NCBI GenBank assembly: GCA_030950925.1 | Contig: JAUZQO010000006.1 | Coordinates: forward strand, 1 to 39,427 | DNA from: Mariprofundaceae bacterium | GTDB lineage: Bacteria > Pseudomonadota > Zetaproteobacteria > Mariprofundales > Mariprofundaceae | Direction: 5' to 3' | DNA length: 39,427 nucleotides | In this document: piece after piece, positions 23,733 to 37,422 of the stretch | Position numbering within the stretch: position 1 is the stretch's first letter | Layout of the letters: each line of letters starts with the position of its first letter | Position numbers and translations under genes: made by a program | Notes under the pieces: model-generated | The model's database searches: none | What the model was told of the DNA's origin: nothing | What the model saw: only the letters and a program-made list of their open reading frames with translations

Positions 23733-25193
23733 ATGTTAAAAAAGCTGCGTTACCACATGCTAGAAACCTTTCAAGGTCGCCTGGCTCTTTTGTATATTAC
23801 CATTGAATTGGCGATCTTGATTTTTTCGGCATTGTTGATTTATATTTTTTTGTCACGTCAAGTGTACCAAAATATGGATGAGGTTCTACTTTCCCAAGCT
23901 CAAGCCATTATTCAGGATTTAGAACATAGCAACAACTTTTATTGGTTCTCTATTCTTGAAGCCTACCAACGTGAAACAGGCGATAGTTTGGAGCTTATTT
24001 CCGCCAATGGCACCATTCAATATGCATCGGACAAAAGCATCATCAATGCTGGTGGCAATGCGGTTAGTTTTGCTTTGGGGCAAGCCATGAATGGATCGCC
24101 TGCTACGTTTATTTCAACCGAGTCACTCTTGGGGAAAAAGAATATGCGCGTGATTTCCATGCCTATTCACCAAGGTCACCATATTATTGCCACCTTGCTC
24201 ATGGCACATAGAAGCAGTGAAATTCAAGCATTTTTTAAACTTTTATACCTCGTCGGTGGCATTTTGGGGGCTATATCCATCATTTTATCATCATGGGCAG
24301 GCTATATGATGGCCAAACGCGCCCTCCGCCCCATCAAAACCATTCAAAAAACTGCGCGTAAGGTCGCACATGGCGATCTAAGCCAACGTTTACCCAATCA
24401 TGCCAAGGAGCGTGAAATTGAAGATTTGATGCAAGACCTAAATTCCATGTTTGAATCCTTAGAGTCCAGCTTCAAATCTCAAAAGCGATTCACAGCCGAT
24501 GCTTCCCATGAGTTACGCATGCCTTTGACCATTCTTAAAGGTGAAATTGAAGTGGCACTTCGCCACCCACGTGATGCCAATGAATACCGCTCCATACTTA
24601 AGCAGCACCTTAAAACAGTTGCGCGTATGCAATATATTGTGGATGATTTACTCACCTTAGCCCGCTCCGATGCAGGCATGCTGGAACTCCAACAACAACC
24701 CGTTGATTTATCTCTTTTACTGCAAGAAGTCGGTCAACAGCACCTTATTTTATTCTCCGAACGCCATATTCATTTGGAAATGGATATTCAGGATGACTTG
24801 GAAGTCATGGGGGATAGCGGACACCTTGAACGCGTCTTCTTCAACCTGCTCGGCAATGCTCATAAATATGCACCTGAACATTCCACGGTTTGGCTCACTA
24901 CCTATGCCCAACAAGAACAAATATCCATCACAGTATGCGATGAAGGACCTGGCATTGCCAAGCAACACCAAGCCCTTTTGTTCAATCGTTTTTATCGCGT
25001 GGATGATTCACGGGCTCGAAAAAAAGGCAGTGCGGGTTTGGGCTTGGCTATTTGCAAACACATTGTTGAAGTCCATCAAGGCAGCATTCATGTCGAAAGC
25101 GATGAAGGCAAAGGTGCATCATTCGTTGTCACCTTACCGCTCATCTCGGTCAACCCCAACCACCAAGCCCGTTTACAACAATTACTTGATTGA
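23733..25193 (+). CDS. Sensor histidine kinase
   Basis: Partner of the preceding response regulator. The 486-residue protein has TM1 at about 17-40, a periplasmic sensor region of about 125 residues, TM2 at about 168-190, a HAMP segment (about 191-243), and a kinase core with the phosphorylated His259 in DASHELRMPL, N-box NLLGNAHKYA (Asn371, Asn375), G1 box DEGPG (403-407) and G2 box GSAGLGLAI (432-440). The H-box has Met where Thr or Ser is usual. Its last 12 nt overlap the end of the convergent PD40 gene. The signal is unknown; the neighbouring phospholipase suggests an envelope cue, but this is inference. Confidence 0.93.
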   Translation: MLKKLRYHMLETFQGRLALLYITIELAILIFSALLIYIFLSRQVYQNMDEVLLSQAQAIIQDLEHSNNFYWFSILEAYQRETGDSLELISANGTIQYASDKSIINAGGNAVSFALGQAMNGSPATFISTESLLGKKNMRVISMPIHQGHHIIATLLMAHRSSEIQAFFKLLYLVGGILGAISIILSSWAGYMMAKRALRPIKTIQKTARKVAHGDLSQRLPNHAKEREIEDLMQDLNSMFESLESSFKSQKRFTADASHELRMPLTILKGEIEVALRHPRDANEYRSILKQHLKTVARMQYIVDDLLTLARSDAGMLELQQQPVDLSLLLQEVGQQHLILFSERHIHLEMDIQDDLEVMGDSGHLERVFFNLLGNAHKYAPEHSTVWLTTYAQQEQISITVCDEGPGIAKQHQALLFNRFYRVDDSRARKKGSAGLGLAICKHIVEVHQGSIHVESDEGKGASFVVTLPLISVNPNHQARLQQLLD

Positions 25194-26216
25194 TGCTTGC
25201 ACTTCAAGCAGTTGAGGCAAGTTCACAGTCCAAACATGAAAACCCGATGCAGAACCCCGCACTTCACGATCTGCTAATATTTTCTTAGCGACCCGACGAT
25301 CCGAATGGAAGTACACCGTGCCATCTTCCGCCAATGAAGGCGCACCATCTTTGCCTTTGTTGTACGTTAAACGGGTGAGCTGTGTGCCTTCATTGGAAAT
25401 TGCCCAAAGCTCCCAGTTGTTTTTATAGCTCACTCCTGTATCCAAACGACCACTACGGTTGGATGTAAAGACAATCCATTTGCCATCATGGCTCCATGTC
25501 GGTTGTGCATCTTTCACATGACCCGATGTCAATTGAGCTAAATTTTTACCATCCAGATCCATCATAAATAAGTGTTGGCTTTTACCCATCAAAATAGAAA
25601 ATACAATACGCTGACCATCCGCCGAAACCGATGCGCCAGCACCATTACTCAAACGTTTTTCCGAACCATCAGGGAAAATATGCACAATATAACTATGCAC
25701 CGCGCCCATATCCCAATTGTTAAAGTGATCCGAAGATAAACCATGTTTTTGTTTGAAACCTTGTGCAATACGTGTGGCAATCACACTGCCATCTTGCAGT
25801 AAAGTCATTTCTTGTAATTTCCCAGTGAGTTCCATTTCACGACGCATCAAACCTTCACCACTGGCAGGTTTTTTCCATAAACTCAACATCCCAGTACGGC
25901 TGGATGAAAACGTAACTTGTTCATCAAACCAAGCAAAGGAAGCAAAGGAAGCAATGTCATCGGTCACTATATTTAAGTAACCACCATTTTGAATCGCACG
26001 GCGTGAAATCGAAGCCTCTTTGCCTTGCATGGTTAAAGTCAGTAAATATTTTCCATCGGGAGAGACTTTGGGGTACATTTCATTTTCTTTATCGGCCAAG
26101 GTCAACAGCAATGCAGTATCACTCTCTTTGACTTCTTGATGAGTAAACAATGATGCTGCTTGCGCCAAAGGAGCCAGCCCAAAACTTAACAAACCGAGCA
26201 TGATATAGGGATACAT
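25182..26216 (-). CDS. Exported PD40 (TolB-like) beta-propeller protein
   Basis: Function unknown. The 344-residue protein has a signal peptide (cut after AQA, about residue 20) and several PD40 units such as PKVSPDGKYLLTL, PTWSHDGKWIVFTSNRSG and PSLAEDGTVYFHSDRR. These build a beta-propeller like that of TolB, which binds proteins in the periplasm. The start has AAGGTG about 7 nt upstream. An earlier TTG is possible but less likely. It begins 10 nt after the stop of the upstream PD40 gene and ends inside the convergent histidine kinase gene (12-nt overlap). No catalytic or haem motif was found. Confidence 0.8.
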   Translation of the reverse strand: MYPYIMLGLLSFGLAPLAQAASLFTHQEVKESDTALLLTLADKENEMYPKVSPDGKYLLTLTMQGKEASISRRAIQNGGYLNIVTDDIASFASFAWFDEQVTFSSSRTGMLSLWKKPASGEGLMRREMELTGKLQEMTLLQDGSVIATRIAQGFKQKHGLSSDHFNNWDMGAVHSYIVHIFPDGSEKRLSNGAGASVSADGQRIVFSILMGKSQHLFMMDLDGKNLAQLTSGHVKDAQPTWSHDGKWIVFTSNRSGRLDTGVSYKNNWELWAISNEGTQLTRLTYNKGKDGAPSLAEDGTVYFHSDRRVAKKILADREVRGSASGFHVWTVNLPQLLEVQASIK

Positions 26217-26226
26217 GGATTTCACC

Positions 26227-27318
26227 TTATTGAATCTCAACTTTCCACAAGCTCCAAGCCGATGAAACGCGTGTTCTTGGGTGTTTTATATCACGGTTGG
26301 AGTGAAAAATCAGTGTATGCATATCTGCCCATGCCACACCACCATCCGCAGCTTCTTCAGCATTGGTGATACGCTTCACTTTTCCCGTATTTAAGTCCAT
26401 CACATAAATGGACGTTTGACGCACACTACCTTCGCTATCTCGATTGGAAACAAAAGCGAGCTGCTTACCATCAGGGCTAAAAGCAGGTTCAAAATCACCA
26501 TAAGTCTGTGTGGTAAGCTGTGTTAACCCTGTGCCATCCATATTTTGCAACCATAAATCATAGTTACCTTCAACACTACGGACAAAAGCAATTTGTTTTC
26601 CATCTGGAGAAATAGCGCCATCAAAAGCTTTAGGCAACATGCTCAGTTCAGAATTTTGACGGTTAAAAATAAATAAAGCAGGTTCATCAAATTTGTTATG
26701 TGTGCCTTTTTCAGTGGCTTTATAGCCCATTTTATACATGAAATAATTGGAGTCATACATGCGCCAAGCTTGACCTACCAATTCACGATGGGTTGGTTTG
26801 GCAAATTCATTGAGTAATTCATTATGGCGAATTTTTTGCAAAGCCGCATCAAAACACCACAGCTTTCCATTCACTGATGCATTCAAGTGTTCAGGAATCA
26901 GACCACCCCGATACAGTCCCATATTGGCAATCGCAACATGTGCATCACCCTGCCCTTGCCACATCCATGCTGACATGGGACCTATCCGATTACTCACATA
27001 ACCAATTTCACCATGTTGCAGTGCCACACCTTCACGCAAGGCTTCGTTCAACATCATTGGATCCACGCGCTTGCCCGCCATATCGGGTTGATCCACTTGC
27101 ACCCGTACAACACTAAATTCATCATGACGAACTTCGTTATAAACAAGAAATTTCCCAGCAATACTTGGGTACACCAAATCTTGGTGTTTCGCAGCTAAAT
27201 ATGACGACACAGGAAACAACTCTGGTTCAACGTTGACACTCTTGGCAACGGCAACTTGGCTTGCTAACATCGATGTTAGCAACGCAACACCCCAAGACAG
27301 CTTGGTTATTTTATACAT
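26227..27318 (-). CDS. Exported PD40 (TolB-like) beta-propeller protein
   Basis: Function unknown. The 363-residue protein begins MYKITK with AAGGAG 5 nt upstream and has a signal peptide cut after AVA (about residue 26). PD40 units include GAISPDGKQIAFVRS and PAFSPDGKQLAFVSNRDS. It is a likely paralogue of the gene right after it: both end with repeated strands matching HSNRD/HSDRR followed by a W-containing tail. The two probably form an operon and act together in the periplasm. A CRP-type palindrome lies about 127 nt before the start. Confidence 0.8.
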   Translation of the reverse strand: MYKITKLSWGVALLTSMLASQVAVAKSVNVEPELFPVSSYLAAKHQDLVYPSIAGKFLVYNEVRHDEFSVVRVQVDQPDMAGKRVDPMMLNEALREGVALQHGEIGYVSNRIGPMSAWMWQGQGDAHVAIANMGLYRGGLIPEHLNASVNGKLWCFDAALQKIRHNELLNEFAKPTHRELVGQAWRMYDSNYFMYKMGYKATEKGTHNKFDEPALFIFNRQNSELSMLPKAFDGAISPDGKQIAFVRSVEGNYDLWLQNMDGTGLTQLTTQTYGDFEPAFSPDGKQLAFVSNRDSEGSVRQTSIYVMDLNTGKVKRITNAEEAADGGVAWADMHTLIFHSNRDIKHPRTRVSSAWSLWKVEIQ

Positions 27319-27444
27319 GAACACTCCTTACACTTAAAAACTACGGGGGAGTCTGTCGGACTTAGAAAATGATAGCGAATTGCGTAGAATTGAGCCAAAC
27401 CAGACAGAACTCGTGGGCATATTCGTGATAAAACTATTCTTTCA

Positions 27445-27460
27445 TGTGATATACATCACC
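27445..27460. promoter_or_regulatory. CRP-type palindrome upstream of PD40 pair
   Basis: TGTGATATACATCACC contains a perfect GTGAT-N4-ATCAC palindrome and matches the CRP consensus TGTGA-N6-TCACA at all but the last base. The window encodes a CRP-family protein whose recognition helix keeps the Arg-Glu pair that reads TGTGA in E. coli CRP. It lies in the gap downstream of the receiver gene and upstream of the PD40 pair. Confidence 0.5.
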
Positions 27461-27465
27461 CTATT

Positions 27466-27843
27466 TCAAGCTACTTGAAAATACCCATCTTTCACTGGAA
27501 TAGATTTTTCATCTCGTTCATTCACCACTTGAAGTAAATGTCGGATAGAAAAAGGTTTTTGAATTAACGATATATTAGTAGGTATCTCATCGAAGCAATA
27601 GCCTGTAATCATAATTTTTTGAATACTGGGCGTGTGAGATTGCAGCATCCTCATCAGCTCCAGACCATTCATTTCAGGCATACAATAATCACTTATCACA
27701 GTTCGAATGTTAGACTGGTGTTGCTGAAAGACTCCCAATGCTTGTATCGGTGAGGAACATGGCAATACGCGATACCCTTGCTGTTTTAAAAAGCTTGAAT
27801 AAAGCCCTAAAATTTCCTCATCATCATCTACAAATAAAATCAC
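27466..27843 (-). CDS. Single-domain response regulator (receiver only)
   Basis: A 125-residue receiver with no output domain. Numbering from the GTG start used here, the acidic pocket is DDDEE (6-10), the phosphoacceptor Asp52 (SDYCMPEMNG), Thr80 and Lys96. The GTG at 27843 has GGAGG 5 nt upstream. The reading frame is open further to an ATG at 27885, but those residues do not fit the fold. It lies downstream of the cyclase on the same strand, separated by a 141-bp palindromic repeat. Single-domain receivers act by binding a partner protein or as phosphate carriers. Whether it regulates the cyclase/GTPase set is an inference from position. Confidence 0.8.
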   Translation of the reverse strand: MILFVDDDEEILGLYSSFLKQQGYRVLPCSSPIQALGVFQQHQSNIRTVISDYCMPEMNGLELMRMLQSHTPSIQKIMITGYCFDEIPTNISLIQKPFSIRHLLQVVNERDEKSIPVKDGYFQVA

Positions 27844-27923
27844 ACCATCACCTCCACAGCTCATCCAACAGCGCCCATGGTACAATCCAAAATAATGGAT
27901 ACCTGTGCTTTATATTACGTGCT

Positions 27924-28064
27924 GATGTTACGCACCTTATAAAAAACAGCGTCACCCCCGAAATCGTGTATCGGGGATCTATGGATTGCAACAAAAGACC
28001 CTCGACACGCGCACTCGAGGGTGACGAGCAGGTGGAAGCATAAGATAACGGCGTGCGTAACATC
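27924..28064. repeat. Two-hairpin miniature repeat, copy 1
   Basis: Bounded by 12-bp perfect inverted ends (GATGTTACGCAC at 27924-27935, GTGCGTAACATC at 28053-28064). Inside are two perfect hairpins, CCCCGA/TCGGGG (27956-27976) and CCCTCGA/TCGAGGG (27999-28021), framed by GTCACCC and GGGTGAC (27951-28025). The same two hairpins, with different loops, occur at 37527-37592. The stop codon of the cyclase gene lies in the bases just past the right end, so insertion may have set that stop. No coding potential. It looks like a MITE or REPIN. Confidence 0.8.
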
Positions 28065-28066
28065 CG

Positions 28067-29116
28067 TTACGTGTTTGTTTTTTTATGATGCCATACATAC
28101 ACACAGGTATCACCAATGCCCTTTAAATTTAAGCTCATCGGTAGACAATCTATAGGCTGATGCAATGCCAAATAACTATCTCTATCCAGCAATATATCAC
28201 CCGCAGGTGCATTGGATTCCAAGCGTGCTGCACGATTAACATGCGGACCAATGGCGGTAAAACAACGACGATGATGTGTACCCAACATGCCCAATACCGC
28301 CTCGCCTGACGCAATACCCACACCGACACCCAGTTGCTCGAGCCCTTGTTTTTGACGTTGTTCATTGAGCGTTTGAACCGCTTTTAGAATCTGTTTCCCA
28401 GCAACAAAGGCATCGTCGATACAACCATGCTCCGAATCCAGAACACCAAACACCGCCATCGCACCATCACCTGTGATTTTATCAATCATACCCGCTTGAT
28501 TGAGTATCGGATCCAACATACACGTCATGTACTCATTCAGCGTTTCAATCACCACCTGTGCATCCTGGCTTTCATTGAATGGTGTAAAGCCACGAATATC
28601 CGTAAACAATGTACTAATCACACGCCGTTCACCTTTGGCCTTGATGCTTAAACCACCTTCAGCATCCCGCCTCACCACTTCAGAGCCCACATAGCGATTT
28701 AAGGTGCGTTGATGTTGACCTTGTAACAGCAGCAAATCATTGGAAATTTGTTGATACTTCTGAAATTTCTCAGTTTCCTCACTCACATCGCAAAAAAGCA
28801 ACCAATCCGAATCATGATCACACAATGCAATCACATCGGTATATTGCCCATCCACCAACTGTATTTGTGACAGCTCGAAATCATCCACCAGCGGCAACAT
28901 GCCCAGCAACACCTCACAAGCTTCCGATACATCTGTTCCCAAGCGTGGAGAAACATCAAAATAATGTTGCCAAGCCCCACCAACCGTAAGAATATCAGAT
29001 CCACCTTTTGTTAATTGCAACCAAGCGGGCTGGAATCGCTGCGTGGCATTTAAAGTCAACCGCTTTGCCAAGATTTCAGGCATCGCATGGCAGGAATGAT
29101 GCAGCCGTTCACTCAT
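28067..29116 (-). CDS. Class III adenylate cyclase
   Basis: Makes cAMP from ATP. The catalytic domain occupies about residues 165-345 of 349. Metal-binding Asp173 (FTDIRGF) and Asp217 (GDG), adenine-selecting Lys213 and Thr287, and transition-state residues Asn294 and Arg298 (VNRAARLE) are all present, so an active adenylate cyclase is expected. The Lys/Thr pair matches the one known from cyanobacterial CyaC. Residues 1-150 form an unrecognised, possibly PAS-like, regulatory part. No membrane segment is seen, so it should be cytoplasmic. The ATG overlaps the GTPase stop (ATGA), implying co-translation. A CRP-family gene 4 kb upstream on the same strand is a likely receiver of its product. Confidence 0.9.
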   Translation of the reverse strand: MSERLHHSCHAMPEILAKRLTLNATQRFQPAWLQLTKGGSDILTVGGAWQHYFDVSPRLGTDVSEACEVLLGMLPLVDDFELSQIQLVDGQYTDVIALCDHDSDWLLFCDVSEETEKFQKYQQISNDLLLLQGQHQRTLNRYVGSEVVRRDAEGGLSIKAKGERRVISTLFTDIRGFTPFNESQDAQVVIETLNEYMTCMLDPILNQAGMIDKITGDGAMAVFGVLDSEHGCIDDAFVAGKQILKAVQTLNEQRQKQGLEQLGVGVGIASGEAVLGMLGTHHRRCFTAIGPHVNRAARLESNAPAGDILLDRDSYLALHQPIDCLPMSLNLKGIGDTCVYVWHHKKTNT

Positions 29117-29610
29117 ACATTTAACATATTTTCAGCAATATTGAAAAATGTTTGTTCCACATTCTCACCTGTTTTGGCACTGCTTTGATACACACTCACA
29201 TATTTCTCATTCAGCTGCTTCACCACCCCTTCAGACATGCACCACTGGTCTTCCAAATCTACTTTATTGAGCAACCAAACACTGGGAATATTGCCCACAT
29301 CCTGTTCAACCCGTTGAAAAATATTTTGTGCCACACTCAAGGTATCGGGGCGGGTTCCATCGGCCACCATGATGACACCTGAAGCACCTCGAAAATAACT
29401 GGACGTAATTTTCTTGAATTTTTCCTCACCATGAATATCCCAAATCATCAAGTTGACTTGCTGCGATTCAAGCTGCACGATTTTTCGATCAATTTTCACA
29501 CCCATACTCGATAAGTATTTTTCCGAAAATTTACTGTACACAAATTGCGCAATCAAACTTGTTTTGCCCACACCCGCAGCACCCAATACACAAATCTTTT
29601 TTTGAATCAT
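29113..29610 (-). CDS. Rab/Ras-like small GTPase
   Basis: A 165-residue protein of the Ras superfamily, unusual in bacteria compared with TRAFAC translation GTPases. P-loop GAAGVGKTS is at 10-18 (Ala at the Ras Gly12 position), switch I contains SSMGVKID, G3 is WDIHGEE (57-63), G4 is NKVD (115-118) and G5 is SSAK (143-146). The catalytic Gln of Ras (Gln61) is Glu62 here, which suggests an altered hydrolysis mode. There is no C-terminal lipidation site. AAGGA precedes the ATG. The 872-residue membrane protein lies 17 nt upstream and the adenylate cyclase overlaps downstream. Both are candidate partners. Confidence 0.9.
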   Translation of the reverse strand: MIQKKICVLGAAGVGKTSLIAQFVYSKFSEKYLSSMGVKIDRKIVQLESQQVNLMIWDIHGEEKFKKITSSYFRGASGVIMVADGTRPDTLSVAQNIFQRVEQDVGNIPSVWLLNKVDLEDQWCMSEGVVKQLNEKYVSVYQSSAKTGENVEQTFFNIAENMLNV

Positions 29611-29627
29611 CGTTGTTTTCCTTTCCT

Positions 29628-32246
29628 CTACGGTTGCTTTATCACTGTAAATACAATACGACTATCCTGCTTCACACCTTGATTTTCACTAAAATCTGTG
29701 ATGATCTGTGATTCAAAAACACCATACTTCTTCAAACCTTGATGAATGGCATGATTTCGCATCATGAGCACAAGTTTTTCAGATCGCTTATAAGCAATAG
29801 CAAGATGCAACCGACTGTCAGGATGCAGCTCAACAGCACGATGGAAAATATTGCTTAGCCGCTTAAGTGCTGCTTCATCTTTGACCGTCAACAACGGGTG
29901 GTTGGCGAAAGTCTGCAAACGTGTCGAGGCCACTTGAATTTGCAACTGCTCCCAACCATCGGCTTGGGCTTTCGCATGCAAAGATTTTATATCAAACGAT
30001 TGAAGCCCTGGAATCACCGCTACCTGAGCTTTCAGGCTTTCAATCCATGCTATATCCGCTTCACCCAGAATACTCAGAACCCCTTGCGAGACTTGTAAAC
30101 GAACACCCTCAGGTGGTTGTAGTGTTGTCATCGCAATTTTCAGAATTTCTTCATCAGAATATATCATGTCAACTTGCTCATCAAAGGTGAACACACCATC
30201 TATATGCAAGGCTTCTCGATGGACAAAGCTAATCCAGCGTTTTGATGCCTGACCACGTGCATGCAGCACCCCATCAGCAAAGCTTAACTGCACACTTGGC
30301 TCGGGATGCAAACGCAACTTCGCCTGCTCCAATACCGCATCTGCATGCCAAATTTGCTTGACTTGATTCTGAAAGGATTGAACCCCTTTTATGTTTAAGG
30401 CTTGTAGGTTTGCAAATGTAATCCAGCGTCCATCGGCTTCACCTTTCACCAAAAGCTTACCTTTGTTCAGAAATAAGTCGACACTGGCAGGCGGCTCCAA
30501 TGCTGCAATCACACGCGCCAAATTCACCTTATTCAATATTTTCAAATCCTTCGCATCAAAACCTAAAATGTATTTCAAAGCAACGGATTTTTTCTGCGCA
30601 TTGGCAATCCAAGAAGCTGATGCAGCACCTTGTGCTTTTAATATATGCTCTTTTGTTATTGATAAATGTACACCACGAGGTGGGTGCAATGCCTGCTGCG
30701 CTAGCTGCAATATATAATCCACTGAATCAAGGCGAAGCACCGCATGATCATCATAGGATGCCATATCCTTTAGCGATGCGAGCCTTGCTTTGGCTTGCTG
30801 CAACCAAGCTATTGTGGCTGAACCTGTCAGCATCACAGCATCACCTTGCACATGCAGTTGAACACTATCAATGGGCTGCCATAACATCATCACACGTTCT
30901 TGAAATGTTTTGGGGGGTTTAGGAACATCAACAGCATCCACGTTCACCAAAGCAATGCCATCCATCCATTGTGTCATCAATTGAAGTTCCGATAACCAAG
31001 CTTGGGAAGCTTTGCCATACACATAAAGCACATCATCTTGAATTTTAAAGGACACACTGCTGGGGGCTTTGGATAAATGCCAAAGTCGTTTTAACATCAT
31101 ACCATGATCCAAGGCATGATAAGGCTGAAAATGATACTGCACGCCAGCTTCGTTTAACTCAAATTTTTTCAATAAACTTGCTGCTTGAATCGCCAAGGGA
31201 TCACGCAACCCATAGATATGATGGATACCTTCATGTTCATCCACATCGGTAATCACTAAGCCTGGCGTTTCTTTCAGGGTTTGTATGTATGATTGCCAGC
31301 GATGTTTTAATGCAAGTTTTTGTTCCACATTCCAGCTTGTCCATCCGACAAAACTTATCACCAGAATAGATAAAGCAATGATGAGTTTGATGGGCGGTTT
31401 TTTTTCGTGATCCACATAATCGACCAGTAGAAGTGGTGCAAGCATATCATGCGAAGCTGAAAAATGAGAGGTATCACCATCAAAAGTTTTTAACACATCA
31501 TGAAATGTTTGAAGTAAATGCTCCAGTGTTTGCCCCAGTGTAACTTGCAAAGAACGGGGCGGGTTACCTCGGCATACAACAGCCAACACACTATAAGGTC
31601 CTTGTTCTATCATTACTTCAAGATCACCCAAACGTAGGCTTTGCACCTCTTGATTTGGAGAGCCTTGAAAAGAGTCCTGAATAAAGTCACCGACAGCCGT
31701 CAGCATACTGGACACCACATCCGCATCTTCGGTGAGTGAAGGATCAAAGGATTCGTGTGCCAACAGTAACCCTGTTTCTTTATGAATCCAAAACACTTGC
31801 TCAACGCGATACAATAAAGTATTCAACATCACCACTTCAGCAAATGACTTGCCTGTTCGAAATGCCTCCCAACGCCACAGCATACTTTTGGGCGAAAAAG
31901 CTTGTTCCAAGGTTTGATTAAGTGATTGTAACATCTCTGAGATAGCATATTGGATGGAACGGCGAATGGCAGGCCCCATCACTGGGAACAAGGCATCTGC
32001 AAAAGCTTTGGGATCATTGGCAATCGATTCGCTCACTGCTGTTTCAACAGCTGGCATCAATGCTTTGCCCAAGCCTTCATCATGCGCCCGTAAATCAAGC
32101 GCTTCAACCAAGACTTCAGAAATTTCCTTGGCATGTAGTTCTTCATTATCGCGCACTTCTTCAATGGCAGAAATACGCGCTTCTTCTTCTTTAAAAAGAA
32201 GCTTGCGCAATTGTTGCATGGGATCATGGTGATTGTGATCTGTCAT
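29628..32246 (-). CDS. Membrane protein with N-terminal domain, six tandem repeats and OmpA-like tail
   Basis: Function not established. Visible parts of the 872 residues: an acidic helical N-terminus (1-130); a domain at about 135-255 (LLYRVEQVFWIHKETGLLL, then SSMLTAVGDFI) that could be roadblock-like; one transmembrane helix at about 285-303; a linker; six repeats of about 55-65 residues starting near 394, 457, 520, 584, 648 and 710, each with a PP-x-SV/GV start, a GVL/LLV strand, a G-x-A segment and a WI/WL pair (WISFVHREAL is one example); and a C-terminal OmpA-like fold (about 785-872) lacking the usual NxxLSxxRA motif. The N-terminus would be cytoplasmic and the repeats periplasmic. 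I recall similar proteins next to Rab-like GTPases in other bacteria, but did not verify that. The gene precedes the GTPase by 17 nt. Confidence 0.75.
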   Translation of the reverse strand: MTDHNHHDPMQQLRKLLFKEEEARISAIEEVRDNEELHAKEISEVLVEALDLRAHDEGLGKALMPAVETAVSESIANDPKAFADALFPVMGPAIRRSIQYAISEMLQSLNQTLEQAFSPKSMLWRWEAFRTGKSFAEVVMLNTLLYRVEQVFWIHKETGLLLAHESFDPSLTEDADVVSSMLTAVGDFIQDSFQGSPNQEVQSLRLGDLEVMIEQGPYSVLAVVCRGNPPRSLQVTLGQTLEHLLQTFHDVLKTFDGDTSHFSASHDMLAPLLLVDYVDHEKKPPIKLIIALSILVISFVGWTSWNVEQKLALKHRWQSYIQTLKETPGLVITDVDEHEGIHHIYGLRDPLAIQAASLLKKFELNEAGVQYHFQPYHALDHGMMLKRLWHLSKAPSSVSFKIQDDVLYVYGKASQAWLSELQLMTQWMDGIALVNVDAVDVPKPPKTFQERVMMLWQPIDSVQLHVQGDAVMLTGSATIAWLQQAKARLASLKDMASYDDHAVLRLDSVDYILQLAQQALHPPRGVHLSITKEHILKAQGAASASWIANAQKKSVALKYILGFDAKDLKILNKVNLARVIAALEPPASVDLFLNKGKLLVKGEADGRWITFANLQALNIKGVQSFQNQVKQIWHADAVLEQAKLRLHPEPSVQLSFADGVLHARGQASKRWISFVHREALHIDGVFTFDEQVDMIYSDEEILKIAMTTLQPPEGVRLQVSQGVLSILGEADIAWIESLKAQVAVIPGLQSFDIKSLHAKAQADGWEQLQIQVASTRLQTFANHPLLTVKDEAALKRLSNIFHRAVELHPDSRLHLAIAYKRSEKLVLMMRNHAIHQGLKKYGVFESQIITDFSENQGVKQDSRIVFTVIKQP

Positions 32247-32281
32247 GCTGTATCTCTCATCAGATTAAACGATTGAATGGA

Positions 32282-32833
32282 TTATGATTCTTTCTTGGGT
32301 AGTGTGAACTCACCATTTAAGCGCATCGCCACTTCATTAAACATATCGGCCAAAGCTCGGCGATCTGCTTTATCATCACGCAACTCATCCGTGGAACGAT
32401 TCAATGATGAATTCAGTGTATCGCGGACTGTTTGGATTTCTCTAAGTAAGGATTTGGACTGATCCAATAAAGCATCGCGCAATTCACTTTTGCCTTGATT
32501 CAGGCTTTGTTGAAGTTGACCATTTTTTTTATCTGCTTCTTTGCTCTTTTTACTTAACTCATCACTGAGTTGCCTCGTATCATCCTCGCGCTCGCCGCGT
32601 TCAAGGCTGATCTGATCCAACAAGCTTCCTACTTCTTGCTTGATATAAAGCTCTAAAGCATCCAAACGATTGGCGGTTTCACCGCGTAATGTGGCAGCTT
32701 CTGCTTGCATCTTTTCTTCCAAACGTACAAAACGTTTTTCATAATCACGCATTTGCGCACCAAAGATAATATCGCGTATTTGATCGATATTGCCTTCGTC
32801 AACTGGAGCTTGAGTTTCTTTTTCATGCGTCAT
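32282..32833 (-). CDS. Coiled-coil protein
   Basis: A 183-residue, highly charged protein without signal or membrane segments. Heptad-like stretches run from about residue 30 to 165, including YEKRFVRLEEKMQAEAATLR and DDTRQLSDELSKKSKEADKK (each quoted at 20 residues). A short N-terminal segment NIDQIRDIIFG may be a docking site. Start MTHEKE is chosen, with AAAGG 8 nt upstream. An in-frame GTG three codons earlier is possible. It is 35 nt upstream of the large membrane protein and is probably part of the same operon, acting as a scaffold. Function is inferred only from context. Confidence 0.75.
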   Translation of the reverse strand: MTHEKETQAPVDEGNIDQIRDIIFGAQMRDYEKRFVRLEEKMQAEAATLRGETANRLDALELYIKQEVGSLLDQISLERGEREDDTRQLSDELSKKSKEADKKNGQLQQSLNQGKSELRDALLDQSKSLLREIQTVRDTLNSSLNRSTDELRDDKADRRALADMFNEVAMRLNGEFTLPKKES

Positions 32834-32940
32834 CTTGCACACCTTTCACCCGATATAATTGGCGATATGAGACCTGACCGCCTTACAAGCTTGCAACACC
32901 TTGTTGAGATGGGACTACTTTTCAAATCAGCACAAGCCAC

Positions 32941-33603
32941 TCAACTCAATAAATTTGCCAAATACATCCGCGAAACCCTGCTATAACCATCGGTCTCTTT
33001 TGTAACCGCACCCGACGCATAAAACTGCCGCATCACCACAGTAACACGCTCTCTTGTGCAGTTGAGCATACGACCAAGTTGACCATGTGACGGTAAAGTC
33101 ACATGAATGGTGTCGCCTTTGCTGTGATGCCAATCTGGTAATGTCATCAAATAAGTACCGAGGCGATGCAACACCGTTGATTGCCCCAAGCGACTGGCAG
33201 CCTTGGTTGTTTCTAAATAACGCTGCAATTGCATTTCATGCACACGGCGTAAAAAACCCATATCCTGCATACATTTTCGCCATAAAACAGGCGAGATTTT
33301 TAATAATTCACTTTTCTCAGTGAGATAGACACTGGCAGTTCTTGCTTGCGCACCCATCAAGCGTAATTCACCAAACAAAGCACCATTTGTTAAACTATAG
33401 AGCAGTGTTTGTGTACCATCATAGCATTCTGTCTGAACGTCAACCTTTCCTGAAACAATAAAGTAAGCATATTCCTCTCGAATATCACCTTCATAAATCA
33501 AACATGTTCCACGCTTTAAACTTATCGGTGTTGCACCTTTGAAATCATCCGCTGTAAATGTTATTTTACCCATACTCCACCCCAAATCAATACGGACATC
33601 CAT
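32941..33603 (-). CDS. CRP/FNR-family transcription regulator
   Basis: A 220-residue cyclic-nucleotide-type regulator. The phosphate-binding cassette keeps Glu79 (GEL) and Arg88-Thr89, matching the residues that contact cAMP in E. coli CRP (Glu72, Arg82, Ser83). There is no cysteine pattern for an FNR iron-sulfur cluster. The C-terminal winged helix (about 170-210) has recognition helix NCTRERVTVVMRQF, with Arg184-Glu185 equal to CRP Arg180-Glu181. AAGGA precedes the ATG by 5 nt. It is transcribed ahead of the coiled-coil/GTPase/cyclase genes. A TGTAA-N6-TTACA palindrome 56 nt before the start suggests autoregulation. Confidence 0.88.
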   Translation of the reverse strand: MDVRIDLGWSMGKITFTADDFKGATPISLKRGTCLIYEGDIREEYAYFIVSGKVDVQTECYDGTQTLLYSLTNGALFGELRLMGAQARTASVYLTEKSELLKISPVLWRKCMQDMGFLRRVHEMQLQRYLETTKAASRLGQSTVLHRLGTYLMTLPDWHHSKGDTIHVTLPSHGQLGRMLNCTRERVTVVMRQFYASGAVTKETDGYSRVSRMYLANLLS

Positions 33604-33658
33604 TGCAATCCTTCCCTTTTAAACAAGCGAATGGTATGTCTAAAAGAATAAGCTTACA

Positions 33659-33674
33659 TGTAATATTTATTACA
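33659..33674. promoter_or_regulatory. CRP-type palindrome before the crp-like gene
   Basis: TGTAATATTTATTACA is a 16-bp palindrome with 7-bp perfect arms (TGTAATA/TATTACA), with the same half-site spacing as CRP sites. It lies 56 nt upstream of the CRP-family start and 22 nt after the arsC stop. Confidence 0.5.
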
Positions 33675-33696
33675 GCTAATATTTTCTAGAAAACCA

Positions 33697-34122
33697 TCAG
33701 GAACAGGTTAAATATTGAGTAATACGCTCCTGAATTTGGTCTCTCACACGGCGAAACTCATGCATTACTTTAGCTTCTGACCCCGTGCCTTTAGCTGGGT
33801 CATCAAAAGGCCAGTGTTCACGTTTACCCTTGATAGAAAAGATAGGGCAATGTTCATCCGCATGCGTACACACAGTCACCAATAAATCCAAAGATTCCAA
33901 CATCTCAATATCAACTATTTCAGATGCTTGCTTTGAAATATCCACACCAGCTTCAGCCATCACTGCAATCGCACGCGGATTTTTACCATGTGCTTCAATG
34001 CCCGCAGAAAACACGTCAAACTGATGACCCCCCAAGTATTTCAACCAGCCCTCTGCCATTTGTGAACGGCAGGCATTACCTGTACATAAAAACAACACAC
34101 GTTTTTTCTTTTTAACATTCAT
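33697..34122 (-). CDS. arsC: Thioredoxin-type arsenate reductase
   Basis: Reduces arsenate to arsenite. Of the low-molecular-weight phosphatase fold, with the CX5R loop CTGNACR at Cys13-Arg19 and the two relay cysteines at Cys85 and Cys92 (VCTHADEHCP). These match the spacing of S. aureus ArsC (Cys10, Cys82, Cys89), so it should couple to thioredoxin rather than glutaredoxin. 141 residues. The start at 34122 overlaps the ACR3 stop (ATGA) and has GAGG 6 nt upstream. The product arsenite would be exported by the ACR3 gene just before it. Confidence 0.94.
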   Translation of the reverse strand: MNVKKKKRVLFLCTGNACRSQMAEGWLKYLGGHQFDVFSAGIEAHGKNPRAIAVMAEAGVDISKQASEIVDIEMLESLDLLVTVCTHADEHCPIFSIKGKREHWPFDDPAKGTGSEAKVMHEFRRVRDQIQERITQYLTCS

Positions 34123-35162
34123 CTTTGACCTCGTTCGTACCAAGATTTACTACGATTCACAATCGCAACCACCGAAAGCATCACAGGCACTTCGACCAAA
34201 ACACCGACGACCGTTGCCAATGCTGCACCCGATTCAAAACCAAACAAAGCAATGGCTGTGGCGACGGCTAACTCAAAAAAATTGGATGCGCCAATCAATG
34301 CAGAAGGTGCTGCAACACAGTGGGCAACGCCCAAGCGTTTGTTGAGTAGATATGCCAAGCCTGATGTGAAATACACTTGAATAGTGATGGGAATTGCCAG
34401 CATAAGAATCACCCAAGGTTGCTCGATAATTTGCTTGCCTTGGAAAGCAAACAACAACACAATCATGCATAGAAGTGCGCCCATACCATAAGGATTGATG
34501 CGCTGTAATACCGATGCTAAACACTGTTTTTTTAATAAATGTTTTCGCCAAAAATAGGCGATAACAACAGGCATAAAAATATACAATAACACCGATAATA
34601 TCAGAGTGTTCCAAGGGATTTGAATCGAAGCCATACCAAGAAGAAAGGCTACAATGGGAGCAAAAGCCACCATCATAATCACATCATTCAATGCCACTTG
34701 AGATAGTGTAAACTGAGCATCTCCACCTGATAATTTTGACCATACAAAAACCATCGCTGTGCAGGGAGCGGCAGCAAGAATGACCAAACCCGCATAATAA
34801 CTATCCCATTGGAGTGGATCTAAAGCATCGGAAAACACATGGTAAATAAAGAACCAACCCAACAGTGCCATTGAAAAAGGTTTCACAAGCCAGTTGATAC
34901 CAACTGTCACCATAATACCATTGCGATGCTGCCAAACTTTATGCAGTGCGCTATAATCAATGTTCAGTAACATGGGTAAAATCATCACCCATATCAAGAT
35001 AGCCACACTTAAATTGATATGTCCGACTTCAAAGCGCGCCAAAGACAGCGTGAATTCAGGCGCTATATTCCCAAATACCATACCGATGAACATGCTTAGA
35101 AAAACCCAAAAGGTTAAATATCGAGCAAACAAGCCCATATTTGATTTATTTTTATACGACAT
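34119..35162 (-). CDS. acr3: ACR3-family arsenite efflux transporter
   Basis: Inner-membrane exporter of arsenite. The 347-residue protein has about ten hydrophobic segments. Cys134 in AAPCTAMVFVWS and Glu324 in VLVEVPVML correspond to the Cys and Glu known to be essential in ACR3 proteins. GGAGG is 6 nt before the ATG. It overlaps arsC by an ATGA and is preceded by arsR with an AT-rich palindromic gap. Some databases call such genes arsB, but the sequence is the ACR3 type, not ArsB. Confidence 0.93.
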   Translation of the reverse strand: MSYKNKSNMGLFARYLTFWVFLSMFIGMVFGNIAPEFTLSLARFEVGHINLSVAILIWVMILPMLLNIDYSALHKVWQHRNGIMVTVGINWLVKPFSMALLGWFFIYHVFSDALDPLQWDSYYAGLVILAAAPCTAMVFVWSKLSGGDAQFTLSQVALNDVIMMVAFAPIVAFLLGMASIQIPWNTLILSVLLYIFMPVVIAYFWRKHLLKKQCLASVLQRINPYGMGALLCMIVLLFAFQGKQIIEQPWVILMLAIPITIQVYFTSGLAYLLNKRLGVAHCVAAPSALIGASNFFELAVATAIALFGFESGAALATVVGVLVEVPVMLSVVAIVNRSKSWYERGQR

Positions 35163-35187
35163 ATCACACCTCCAACGGATGCGTTAT

Positions 35188-35209
35188 CATATCTATAAAT
35201 CTAAATATG
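35188..35209. promoter_or_regulatory. AT-rich inverted repeat, possible ArsR site
   Basis: CATAT (35188-35192) and ATATG (35205-35209) flank an AT-rich core in the 52-nt gap between arsR and acr3. A site here would let ArsR control acr3-arsC from an internal promoter. The match is short and uncertain. Confidence 0.3.
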
Positions 35210-35214
35210 TAAAA

Positions 35215-35529
35215 CTAATGACTTATTTCAGTTTGTAATGCCAAGGCATCCGCTTCCAATTGAGCATCGACTTGATTGAACACTGACTTCAATTGTGTGG
35301 CGACATCACCACTTAGGGCATAATAGATCCACTTGCCTTCCCGTCTGGTTTGCACCAAGCCTGCATGACGTAAAATACCCAAGTGCCGCGAGATGGTGCT
35401 TTGTGGCATGTCCAAAGCACTGACCAAATGACACACACACACAGCATCATGCTGCCCAATGAGAAAAAAAAGACGCAGGCGAACAGGATCGCCCAACGCC
35501 TTAAAAGATGATGATAATTGAGAAATCAA
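35215..35529 (-). CDS. arsR: ArsR-family metal-responsive repressor
   Basis: Represses arsenic genes until As(III) binds. The 104-residue protein has the Cys31-Val-Cys33 pair (AVCVCHLV), close to the ELCVCDL motif of E. coli-type ArsR, followed by a winged helix (MPQSTISRHLGILRHAGLV). The start is a TTG that overlaps the cytochrome b gene stop (TTGA), so it is probably made by translational coupling. No good ribosome-binding site is visible. It lies directly before acr3. Confidence 0.88.
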   Translation of the reverse strand: MISQLSSSFKALGDPVRLRLFFLIGQHDAVCVCHLVSALDMPQSTISRHLGILRHAGLVQTRREGKWIYYALSGDVATQLKSVFNQVDAQLEADALALQTEISH

Positions 35530-36203
35530 GCGCTAGGCTTGATGCGCGCGAGAATGTTATGCCCTTGGCGTTGATGTAAAATCACAGCAAAAATATGGGC
35601 AGCAAGCAATGCAAGCAAGCCATTGACAACCGTTTCATGAATTTCAGCAACAAACTCCACCATAGCAGTTTGTTCCGCAACTTGACTCCAGTTAAAGTAC
35701 AAGAATGTTCCTGTGATAGCCATGATGATCGCCGATAACATAATGAAACCATGCACACTACGCGCCACAGCTTCACCATCTTCAGGTGGCGCAAGTTTCA
35801 TGGATTTCCAACCCGCCATTTGCAACTTGATTTCATCACCCAATTGCTTGCGACCTGCGGCAAAGAGCCAAGGAAATAAATGACGCCAGTTTGCACCTGG
35901 TAAGTTGGTCATGGCAAGTAAGATGCGAATGATTAACAAACCAGCAATCGTCAAACCCAAATACTCATGCACTTCAAAGCCCAAGCTTTCTTCCACGGGG
36001 CCTGTCTGTGCCATACCATGAGATTCATGCGCGATAGCAGGTGTGACCCAGCTTATACTTGCTTCATCATGATCGCCTTCCACCTCAGGCACATCCATCA
36101 ACTCGCCGACTGCCAATTGTGTCATCATGCACAATGCAAAAATACTATGAAAAATACGAATCGGCTTGGCATAACCTTGATCCTGTGTTGTTTTTTCACT
36201 CAT
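35526..36203 (-). CDS. Cytochrome b561-like membrane protein
   Basis: Likely a membrane electron-transfer cytochrome of the bacterial b561 / Ni-Fe hydrogenase b-subunit fold. The 225-residue protein has four hydrophobic segments (about 15-35, 83-102, 148-168 and 188-210) with histidines His19, His79, His151, His189, His203 and His210 that could ligate two b haems. A His/acid-rich loop (about 43-65) sits between the first two segments. It begins 1 nt after the argG stop, using GGGG within the argG 3' end as its ribosome-binding site, and overlaps arsR. Its electron donor and acceptor are not evident. Confidence 0.8.
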   Translation of the reverse strand: MSEKTTQDQGYAKPIRIFHSIFALCMMTQLAVGELMDVPEVEGDHDEASISWVTPAIAHESHGMAQTGPVEESLGFEVHEYLGLTIAGLLIIRILLAMTNLPGANWRHLFPWLFAAGRKQLGDEIKLQMAGWKSMKLAPPEDGEAVARSVHGFIMLSAIIMAITGTFLYFNWSQVAEQTAMVEFVAEIHETVVNGLLALLAAHIFAVILHQRQGHNILARIKPSA

Positions 36204-36204
36204 A

Positions 36205-37422
36205 TTATTTCCCCGCTAATTGATTCATACGCAAACGCAGCGCATTTAATTTAATAAATCCATCTGCATCTTTTTGGTTGTAAGCACCTTCATCATCTTC
36301 AAACGTGCATAAACGTTCATCAAACAAGGAGTTATCGGATTTACGCCCGATAACCATGACATTACCTTTATACAGTTTCAACCTCACTGTACCATTCACT
36401 GTTGTTTGTGACATATCTATCGCTGATTGCAGCATGCGTGTTTCAGGTGCAAACCAGTAACCATTGTAAATCAATTTGGCATAACGCGGCATCAACTCAT
36501 CTTTCAAATGAGCCGCTTCACGATCCACCGTAATAGATTCAATCGCACGATGAGATTTAAGCATAATTGTACCGCCTGGTGTTTCATAACAACCGCGCGA
36601 CTTCATGCCAACATAACGATTTTCCACAATATCAATGCGCCCAATACCATGCTTGCCACCCAAACAATTCAATTCACGCAAAACACCTGCGGGTGTCATG
36701 GTCACATCATTGATCGCAACAATATCCCCGCCTTTGTAGCTTAGTTCGATATATTCAGCGTCATTGGGTGCATTTTCAGGTGAAACAGACCAACGCCACA
36801 TGGATTCAGAAGGCTCGACCCAAGGATCTTCCAAATCATAACCTTCATACGAGATATGCAACAAATTGGCATCCATCGAATACGGAGATTTGCTACCTGC
36901 GCGTTTACGCTCCACTTCAATGCCATGTTTTTCACAATATGCCAACATATCATTGCGTGAATTTAAATCCCATTCACGCCAAGGTGCAATAACTTTCACA
37001 TCGGGCTTTAAGGCATAAAAACCCAACTCAAAACGCACCTGATCGTTGCCTTTTCCTGTTGCACCATGGGCAACGGCATCCGCGCCCTCGATATTGGCAA
37101 TTTCAATCATACGCTTGGAAATCAATGGGCGAGCGATGGATGTACCAAGCAAATACTCACCTTCATAAATAGCATTGGCACGAAACATCGGATAAACAAA
37201 ATCACGCACATATTCTTCTGTTAAGTCATCAATATAAATCGCAGATGCGCCGCAAGCCTCTGCTTTGATACGTGCATCTTCGACTTCTTCACCTTGCCCA
37301 ATATCCGCTGTAAATGTGACCACATCGCATTGATAGGTATCTTGCAACCATTTCAAAATAATCGATGTGTCCAACCCGCCTGAATAGGCTAAAACAACTT
37401 TATTGATACTTGCTTTTGTCAT
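36205..37422 (-). CDS. argG: Argininosuccinate synthase
   Basis: Joins citrulline and aspartate using ATP, the next-to-last step of arginine synthesis. The 405-residue protein has the ATP-pyrophosphatase P-loop SGGLDTS at residues 14-20, the [12 protein letters not shown] substrate segment, and a normal C-terminus. GGAG lies 7-8 nt before the ATG. It follows argF after a 323-nt non-coding gap. argH, the next enzyme, is not in the window. The downstream cytochrome and ars genes seem to be translated from the same message. Confidence 0.98.

Follow-up and report, generated by a model that had tools for sequence, protein, structure and literature searches.

A Group 1 Rup-type small GTPase locus with a putative class III adenylate cyclase output and an adjacent CRP-type regulator in a Mariprofundaceae bacterium

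Can a small GTPase of a bacterium control the synthesis of cyclic AMP (cAMP)? The question is raised by six genes in a stretch of 39,427 nucleotides from a Mariprofundaceae bacterium (GenBank assembly GCA_030950925.1, contig JAUZQO010000006.1, positions 1 to 39,427; this whole stretch is called the window below). An original prediction had proposed from gene order that a membrane protein senses the envelope and signals through a Rab-like GTPase to a class III adenylate cyclase, whose cAMP acts through a CRP-family regulator, and had not been able to name the arrangement as a described system. The reading that we favour, with a probability of about 0.6, is that the locus encodes a Group 1 Rup GTPase module with a class III adenylate cyclase as its output and a dedicated CRP-type regulator, in which the signal would run from an envelope sensor through the GTPase and cAMP to CRP. 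The genes are the following:

32941-33603, minus strand: CRP-family regulator (Pfam; residue alignment and tree)
32282-32842, minus strand: cytoplasmic coiled-coil protein, IRDIIFG motif close to the N terminus (relatives in all intact loci)
29628-32246, minus strand: 872-residue inner-membrane, envelope-spanning protein (relatives found)
29113-29610, minus strand: Ras/Rab-like GTPase of the Group 1 Rup type, with G3 motif WDIHGEE and without the catalytic glutamine (Pfam, motifs, PMC4316618)
28067-29116, minus strand: putative class III adenylate cyclase, with a PAS-like N-domain at about residues 30-110, a helix at 113-143 and the catalytic domain at 166-320
28748-28750, minus strand: codon of the invariant Gln123 of the cyclase (joint alignment)
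27466-27885, minus strand: single-domain receiver, probable start GTG 27843 (Pfam; conserved neighbour)

All six open reading frames were found on the minus strand, at 27466-33603 as predicted, including the ATGA overlap of the GTPase and cyclase genes. ATG 32833 is a possible start of the coiled-coil gene, and the coiled coil of its product was judged by eye. Neither the coiled-coil protein nor the 872-residue membrane protein matches a Pfam family above the cut-off.

Four of these genes resemble a system that has already been described from genomes. In the survey of Wuichet and Søgaard-Andersen from 2014, a Group 1 Rup neighbourhood has four components: a GTPase whose G3 motif lacks the glutamine, a coiled-coil protein, a membrane protein in which a domain of unknown function is often accompanied by an OmpA domain at the C terminus, and an output protein. 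The output is typically a GGDEF/EAL protein or a histidine kinase and carries an invariant glutamine in its N-terminal region (PMC4316618). The survey counts the Group 1 Rup proteins among those prokaryotic GTPases that lie nearest to eukaryotic Rab/Ras proteins, and it reports neither a Rup protein coupled to MglB nor experimental work on the family (PMC4316618). The GTPase of the window matches Ras in Pfam (1.5e-33) and contains G1 (GAAGVGKT), NKVD and SAK motifs and a switch-I serine, and its G3 motif lacks the glutamine, as it does (GEE or GED) in all cyclase-linked GTPases examined. The coiled-coil, membrane protein, GTPase and output genes match the components described for the Group 1 Rup system, and the core of the locus does have a name. 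Because the survey says 'typically', a cyclase output is a variant rather than a reason for exclusion from Group 1.

The cyclase matches Guanylate_cyc in Pfam (2.7e-18) and retains the metal-binding D173 and D217, the substrate residues K213 and T287, and N294 and R298. This is the residue set of CyaC-type adenylate cyclases, which suggests that the protein is an adenylate cyclase whose product would be cAMP. Its N-terminal region links it to the Rup system. When a profile of this region was compared with the neighbouring proteins of 95 loci, it matched only Rup-locus outputs, namely cyclases, histidine kinases and stand-alone proteins of 120-131 residues, and a profile of the Alteromonas-type GGDEF-EAL N-domains matched the remaining Rup outputs. 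Direct comparison of the two profiles was weak (probability 11.5%), so the kinship of the two N-domain types rests on two bridging loci matched by both (L102 and L114) and on a common glutamine. This single glutamine column is conserved in 32 of 34 sequences of the joint output alignment and corresponds to Q123 in the window. The profile matches and this residue make a Rup output protein the best reading of the cyclase. Its structure model (mean predicted local distance difference test score, pLDDT, of 72.5, with a poor region at about residues 139-181) shows a PAS-like strand order in the N-domain, followed by the helix bearing Q123. Most Foldseek matches of the model are to cyclase catalytic domains, with a few to multidomain proteins; topology is therefore the main basis of the PAS assignment.

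Output proteins of other Rup loci show some further arrangements. Stand-alone Rup N-domain proteins of 120-151 residues adjoin the GTPase gene in six loci (L100, L110, L120, L190, L229 and L230), with sigma-54 activator, kinase or SpoIIE-type outputs nearby. A Desulfobacterales locus (L119:10499-12659) encodes two tandem Rup-linked cyclases, the first with Glu for one metal Asp and Phe for the transition-state Arg, the second intact; the two perhaps form a heterodimer. Three Bacteroidota Rup loci (L231, L232 and L233) encode, beside a histidine kinase, a 307-residue protein with a Rup N-domain and a degenerate-looking cyclase region without clear catalytic residues.

A scan of named genomes gave 372 GTPase relatives, 80 of which were kept; counts over these 80 loci are biased towards the first query sequence. 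GGDEF-EAL proteins are the output in most of them, many from Alteromonadales, and HD-GYP proteins, histidine kinases, sigma-54 activators and SpoIIE proteins also occur. Class III cyclases are rare, with 4 of the 80 loci (three from Zetaproteobacteria and the tandem Desulfobacterales case). Within the family of the window's bacterium, close orthologs of the cyclase are found in about 29 of 74 genomes (E below 1e-74), and the coiled-coil and membrane-protein relatives recur with the GTPase and cyclase in the same order in all intact loci read. Within this family, the search for a conserved neighbourhood that the original prediction had called for supports the cyclase as part of the module. An N-domain search added more Rup-linked cyclases from a single class within the window's phylum, in a genus labelled g52 (five genomes matched, three regions read) and a family labelled f46. 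The g52 cyclases have a Lys/Asp substrate pair, whereas those of Zetaproteobacteria and Desulfobacterota have Lys/Thr or Lys/Ser, and this difference suggests that cyclases were recruited to Rup loci separately. The same search returned an orphan Desulfobacterota cyclase with a Rup-type N-domain match (L189), without the other module genes beside it, and Nitrospirota matches that are stand-alone N-domains adjoining sigma-54 activators. As far as the literature examined shows, the cyclase-output variant of this predicted system is previously undescribed, and the locus is real and conserved; among the publications listed by our searches, none connected class III cyclases with small GTPases or with Zetaproteobacteria.

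The membrane protein consists of a cytoplasmic N-region, one strong transmembrane helix, six repeats and a C-terminal region:

31497-31844, minus strand: predicted roadblock/longin-like domain, residues 135-250 (AlphaFold; Foldseek against PDB)
31335-31391, minus strand: transmembrane helix, residues 286-304 (hydropathy maximum 2.03 over 19 residues)
30042-31085, minus strand: six tandem periplasmic repeats of 63-64 residues, residues 388-735 (pattern scan and direct reading)
29628-30041, minus strand: C-terminal region in the position of the relatives' OmpA-like domain, not recognisable as such by sequence (Pfam, home-made profile)

The repeats, six as predicted, start at residues 388, 452, 515, 579, 642 and 705, five found by pattern and the sixth by eye. 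OmpA is above the Pfam cut-off in three relatives (L035, L038 and L040); the protein of the window has no Pfam match to it, and a home-made profile is weak or absent in the window's genus. The conserved N-domain could be aligned across lineages (28 rows), and with these 28 sequences AlphaFold modelled residues 1-300 with a mean pLDDT of 81. In the model, residues 135-250 run helix-strand-strand-helix-strand-strand-strand-helix. The top Foldseek matches in PDB are mainly longin or roadblock proteins (Ragulator, AP sigma, MglB, TRAPP and Mon1-Ccz1), with probability 1.00 and target template modelling (TM) scores mostly of 0.5-0.67; by sequence, the domain has no relative in the PDB search and no Pfam family. 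This predicted fold suggests a role in docking or regulating the GTPase for the 'unknown domain' of Rup systems. Residues 135-255 had been picked as a GTPase contact in the original prediction, a choice that agrees with the predicted fold. We note that a separate MglB-like roadblock protein is encoded elsewhere in the same genome.

An IRDIIFG-type motif is present in 97 of 99 relatives of the coiled-coil protein, compared with 1.2 expected. A short N-terminal motif of this kind (hydrophobic-R/K/Q-x-hydrophobic-hydrophobic-x-G, e.g. IRDIIFG or VRKLLIG) is common to the coiled-coil and membrane proteins, being found in 74 of 103 membrane-protein relatives against 1.5 expected; the protein of the window reads LRKLLFK at this place. 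It is possible that the motif is a common docking motif.

In the mechanism that we propose, the periplasmic repeats and C-terminal domain of the membrane protein would monitor the condition of the envelope. On the cytoplasmic side, the roadblock/longin-like domain of the same protein, probably jointly with the coiled-coil protein, would dock the GTPase and set its nucleotide state. The GTPase may then act on the PAS-like N-domain and the Gln123-bearing signalling helix of the cyclase and change its cAMP output, and cAMP would load CRP, which would bind a TGTRA-N6-TYACA palindrome at its own promoter. The sequences themselves show the genes and their constant order, the N-domain and glutamine common to Rup outputs, the intact active sites, the residues of the cAMP pocket and the palindrome; the roadblock/longin-like fold is a prediction, and the direction of the signal, the contact between GTPase and cyclase, the role of cAMP as product and ligand, and the envelope cue are inferred.

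How firmly does the last step, from the cyclase to CRP, belong to the module? The regulator matches cNMP_binding (5.2e-15) and HTH_Crp_2 (3.1e-6) in Pfam, and the receiver matches its family with 2.2e-15. Of 18 loci whose flanks could be read in two genera, that of the window and Ghiorsea (g8), 17 have CRP adjoining the core, the exception being L158, and the same gene set is found in a Ghiorsea locus (L033) and in a named Ghiorsea record (L103). In both genera the receiver gene is usually divergent from the CRP gene. The cAMP pocket is conserved, with GEL, R82, S/T83 (T83 in the window), R123 and T127 in E. coli numbering, apart from Asn at position 83 in L039 and an unreadable residue in L157. 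As these residues are retained, an FNR-type regulator is not favoured.

The putative binding site lies just upstream of the series of genes from CRP to cyclase in the window, and between the CRP and receiver genes in relatives:

33659-33674, no strand assigned: CRP-like palindrome TGTAATAAATATTACA in the CRP promoter region, 55 nucleotides before the CRP start codon (0 mismatches to TGTRAY-N4-RTYACA)

A first scan with the textbook motif TGTGA-N6-TCACA found sites at 15 of 19 CRP promoters, compared with 2.5 expected. The refined pattern TGTRAY-N4-RTYACA occurs with at most one mismatch in 15 of 18 CRP promoters against 0.2 expected from dinucleotide shuffles, a figure that is optimistic because the pattern was derived from the same sequences. 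The genome contains six perfect matches, including the site in the window, and the reversed control gives one. In the helix-turn-helix region of the window's CRP, R180 and E181 are present and Val stands at the R185 position; this valine is found only in the window and one close relative (L026), and both have two TGTAA half-sites. Other CRPs have Arg there, and their sites as a rule combine one TGTGA and one TGTAA half. In CRP, R185 contacts G7 of the half-site, and the covariation in these two close relatives fits that contact. Another palindrome, TGTGATAAATATTACA, is located in another part of the genome at G000:C43:5553-5568 (L221), close to a gene for a receiver domain, and is a possible further CRP target.

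The strongest alternative, which we regard as unlikely though worth serious consideration, is that the Rup-cyclase module is real and the adjacent CRP is a mere neighbour with its own regulon (itself and the receiver), while cAMP goes to other cyclic nucleotide-binding proteins. CRP is convergent with the core and outside its operon in most loci, standing at its head only in the window and L026, and it is absent in other genera; the genome encodes many other cyclic nucleotide-binding domains; and the conserved site is at the CRP/receiver promoter, while ahead of the coiled-coil gene no convincing site is seen (5 of 23, compared with 2.4 expected). Against this, CRP is kept beside the core throughout the two genera save for the single exception, even in the window, where it has switched sides, and it retains its cAMP phosphate-binding residues. 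A single fixed operon of six genes can be rejected, since CRP is mostly convergent and absent in other genera, and the receiver gene is about 220 base pairs away from the cyclase gene, a gap that makes their co-transcription uncertain. The five-gene head-to-tail order noted in the original prediction is thus true of the window and special to it and one close relative. As to the predicted module itself, membership of the cyclase is supported, and so is the conservation of CRP as a neighbour within two genera; CRP and the receiver are lineage-limited accessories.

Several points weigh against the dedicated envelope-to-CRP pathway that we favour. In the nine loci read from other genera, neither CRP nor receiver lies beside the core, and cAMP may therefore have other targets in those genera. 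The 15 of 18 palindrome count comes from related loci that are not fully independent (L117 and L155 are the same record), and no palindrome was found before the receiver gene in the window. The pathway leaves the receiver gene without explanation. The genome has four further class III cyclases and 19 cyclic nucleotide-binding domain matches, so the pairing of cyclase and CRP need not be exclusive. Finally, no experiments on any Group 1 Rup system were found in the literature examined. It is worth noting that five class III cyclases in all, in a genome of 2 Mb, make for rich cyclic-nucleotide signalling for its size.

Could the direction of control be the reverse? The 2014 survey proposed that the output's glutamine works in trans as the residue of a GTPase-activating protein (GAP) (PMC4316618), in which case the cyclase would control the GTPase, sensing and ending its signal. 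The glutamine is indeed absent from G3 of the GTPase and invariant in the outputs (PMC4316618). Nevertheless, Q123 is modelled in the helix after a PAS-like fold, a usual place for a signal-relay residue, and the outputs are otherwise differing effector enzymes, which suits a downstream role. We therefore hold this reversal to be improbable, noting that GAP and effector roles of the glutamine are not exclusive. That unrelated genes are neighbours by chance is barely credible: adjacency and short gaps are their sole link in this one genome, and the constant order in all intact family loci, the further occurrences in Desulfobacterales and other lineages and the common output domain lead us to reject it.

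Outside the module, arsenic genes lie directly upstream at 33697-35529 (a low-molecular-weight phosphatase-type ArsC, an SBF-family, ACR3-like transporter and, by reading, an ArsR-like regulator), probably a resistance set. After the receiver gene, two overlapping PD40 beta-propeller (TolB-like) proteins are encoded at 25182-27324. No Rfam elements were found in 25000-36500, and a promoter scan gave no more matches than chance.

A broader claim, to which we give an even chance, is that in bacteria an adenylate cyclase is gated directly by a Ras-superfamily GTPase, itself controlled by a roadblock/longin domain of an envelope-spanning sensor, and that Rup is a general exchangeable platform driving at least six output classes (GGDEF-EAL, HD-GYP, histidine kinase, sigma-54 activator, SpoIIE phosphatase and cyclase) through related N-domains. 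The locus would be a compact version of such a platform, with an easily measured output in cAMP and a candidate reporter in the palindrome promoter of CRP, and the predicted roadblock/longin domain suggests that the missing regulator of the Rup family may sit inside the membrane protein.

Compared with Group 1 Rup systems, the window shares the coiled-coil gene, the membrane protein with a conserved cytoplasmic domain, the Rup GTPase lacking the G3 glutamine and the output N-region with its invariant glutamine. It differs in having a class III adenylate cyclase where a cyclic di-GMP enzyme or histidine kinase is typical, in its added CRP and receiver neighbours, and in a membrane protein without a recognisable OmpA domain, which is not obligatory in the survey (PMC4316618); the domain of unknown function is predicted to be roadblock/longin-like in the window. 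MglA-MglB and the Ragulator- and TRAPP-type platforms place a roadblock/longin fold, like that predicted for the window, beside a Ras-superfamily GTPase. In the window, however, the domain is fused to an envelope-spanning protein and has no detectable sequence relation to solved structures, and the GTPase is Rup rather than MglA. Actinobacterial conservons (CvnABCD) also combine a small GTPase in one operon with a roadblock protein and a signalling enzyme, but use MglA-type GTPases and histidine kinases and have no cyclase. The class IIIb cyclases CyaC, CyaB and Cya2 have a similar catalytic domain, and the CyaC-like Lys/Thr adenylate pair is common to the window; they carry N-terminal sensor domains of other kinds, where the window has a Rup-output domain. 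Eukaryotic adenylate cyclases controlled by Ras and G proteins offer a comparison of working principle only, a GTPase upstream of cAMP; the window is not a member of that group, and we know of no regulatory domains that the two have in common. If our reading is true, small-GTPase control of cAMP, familiar in eukaryotes, would also be bacterial, with a different architecture.

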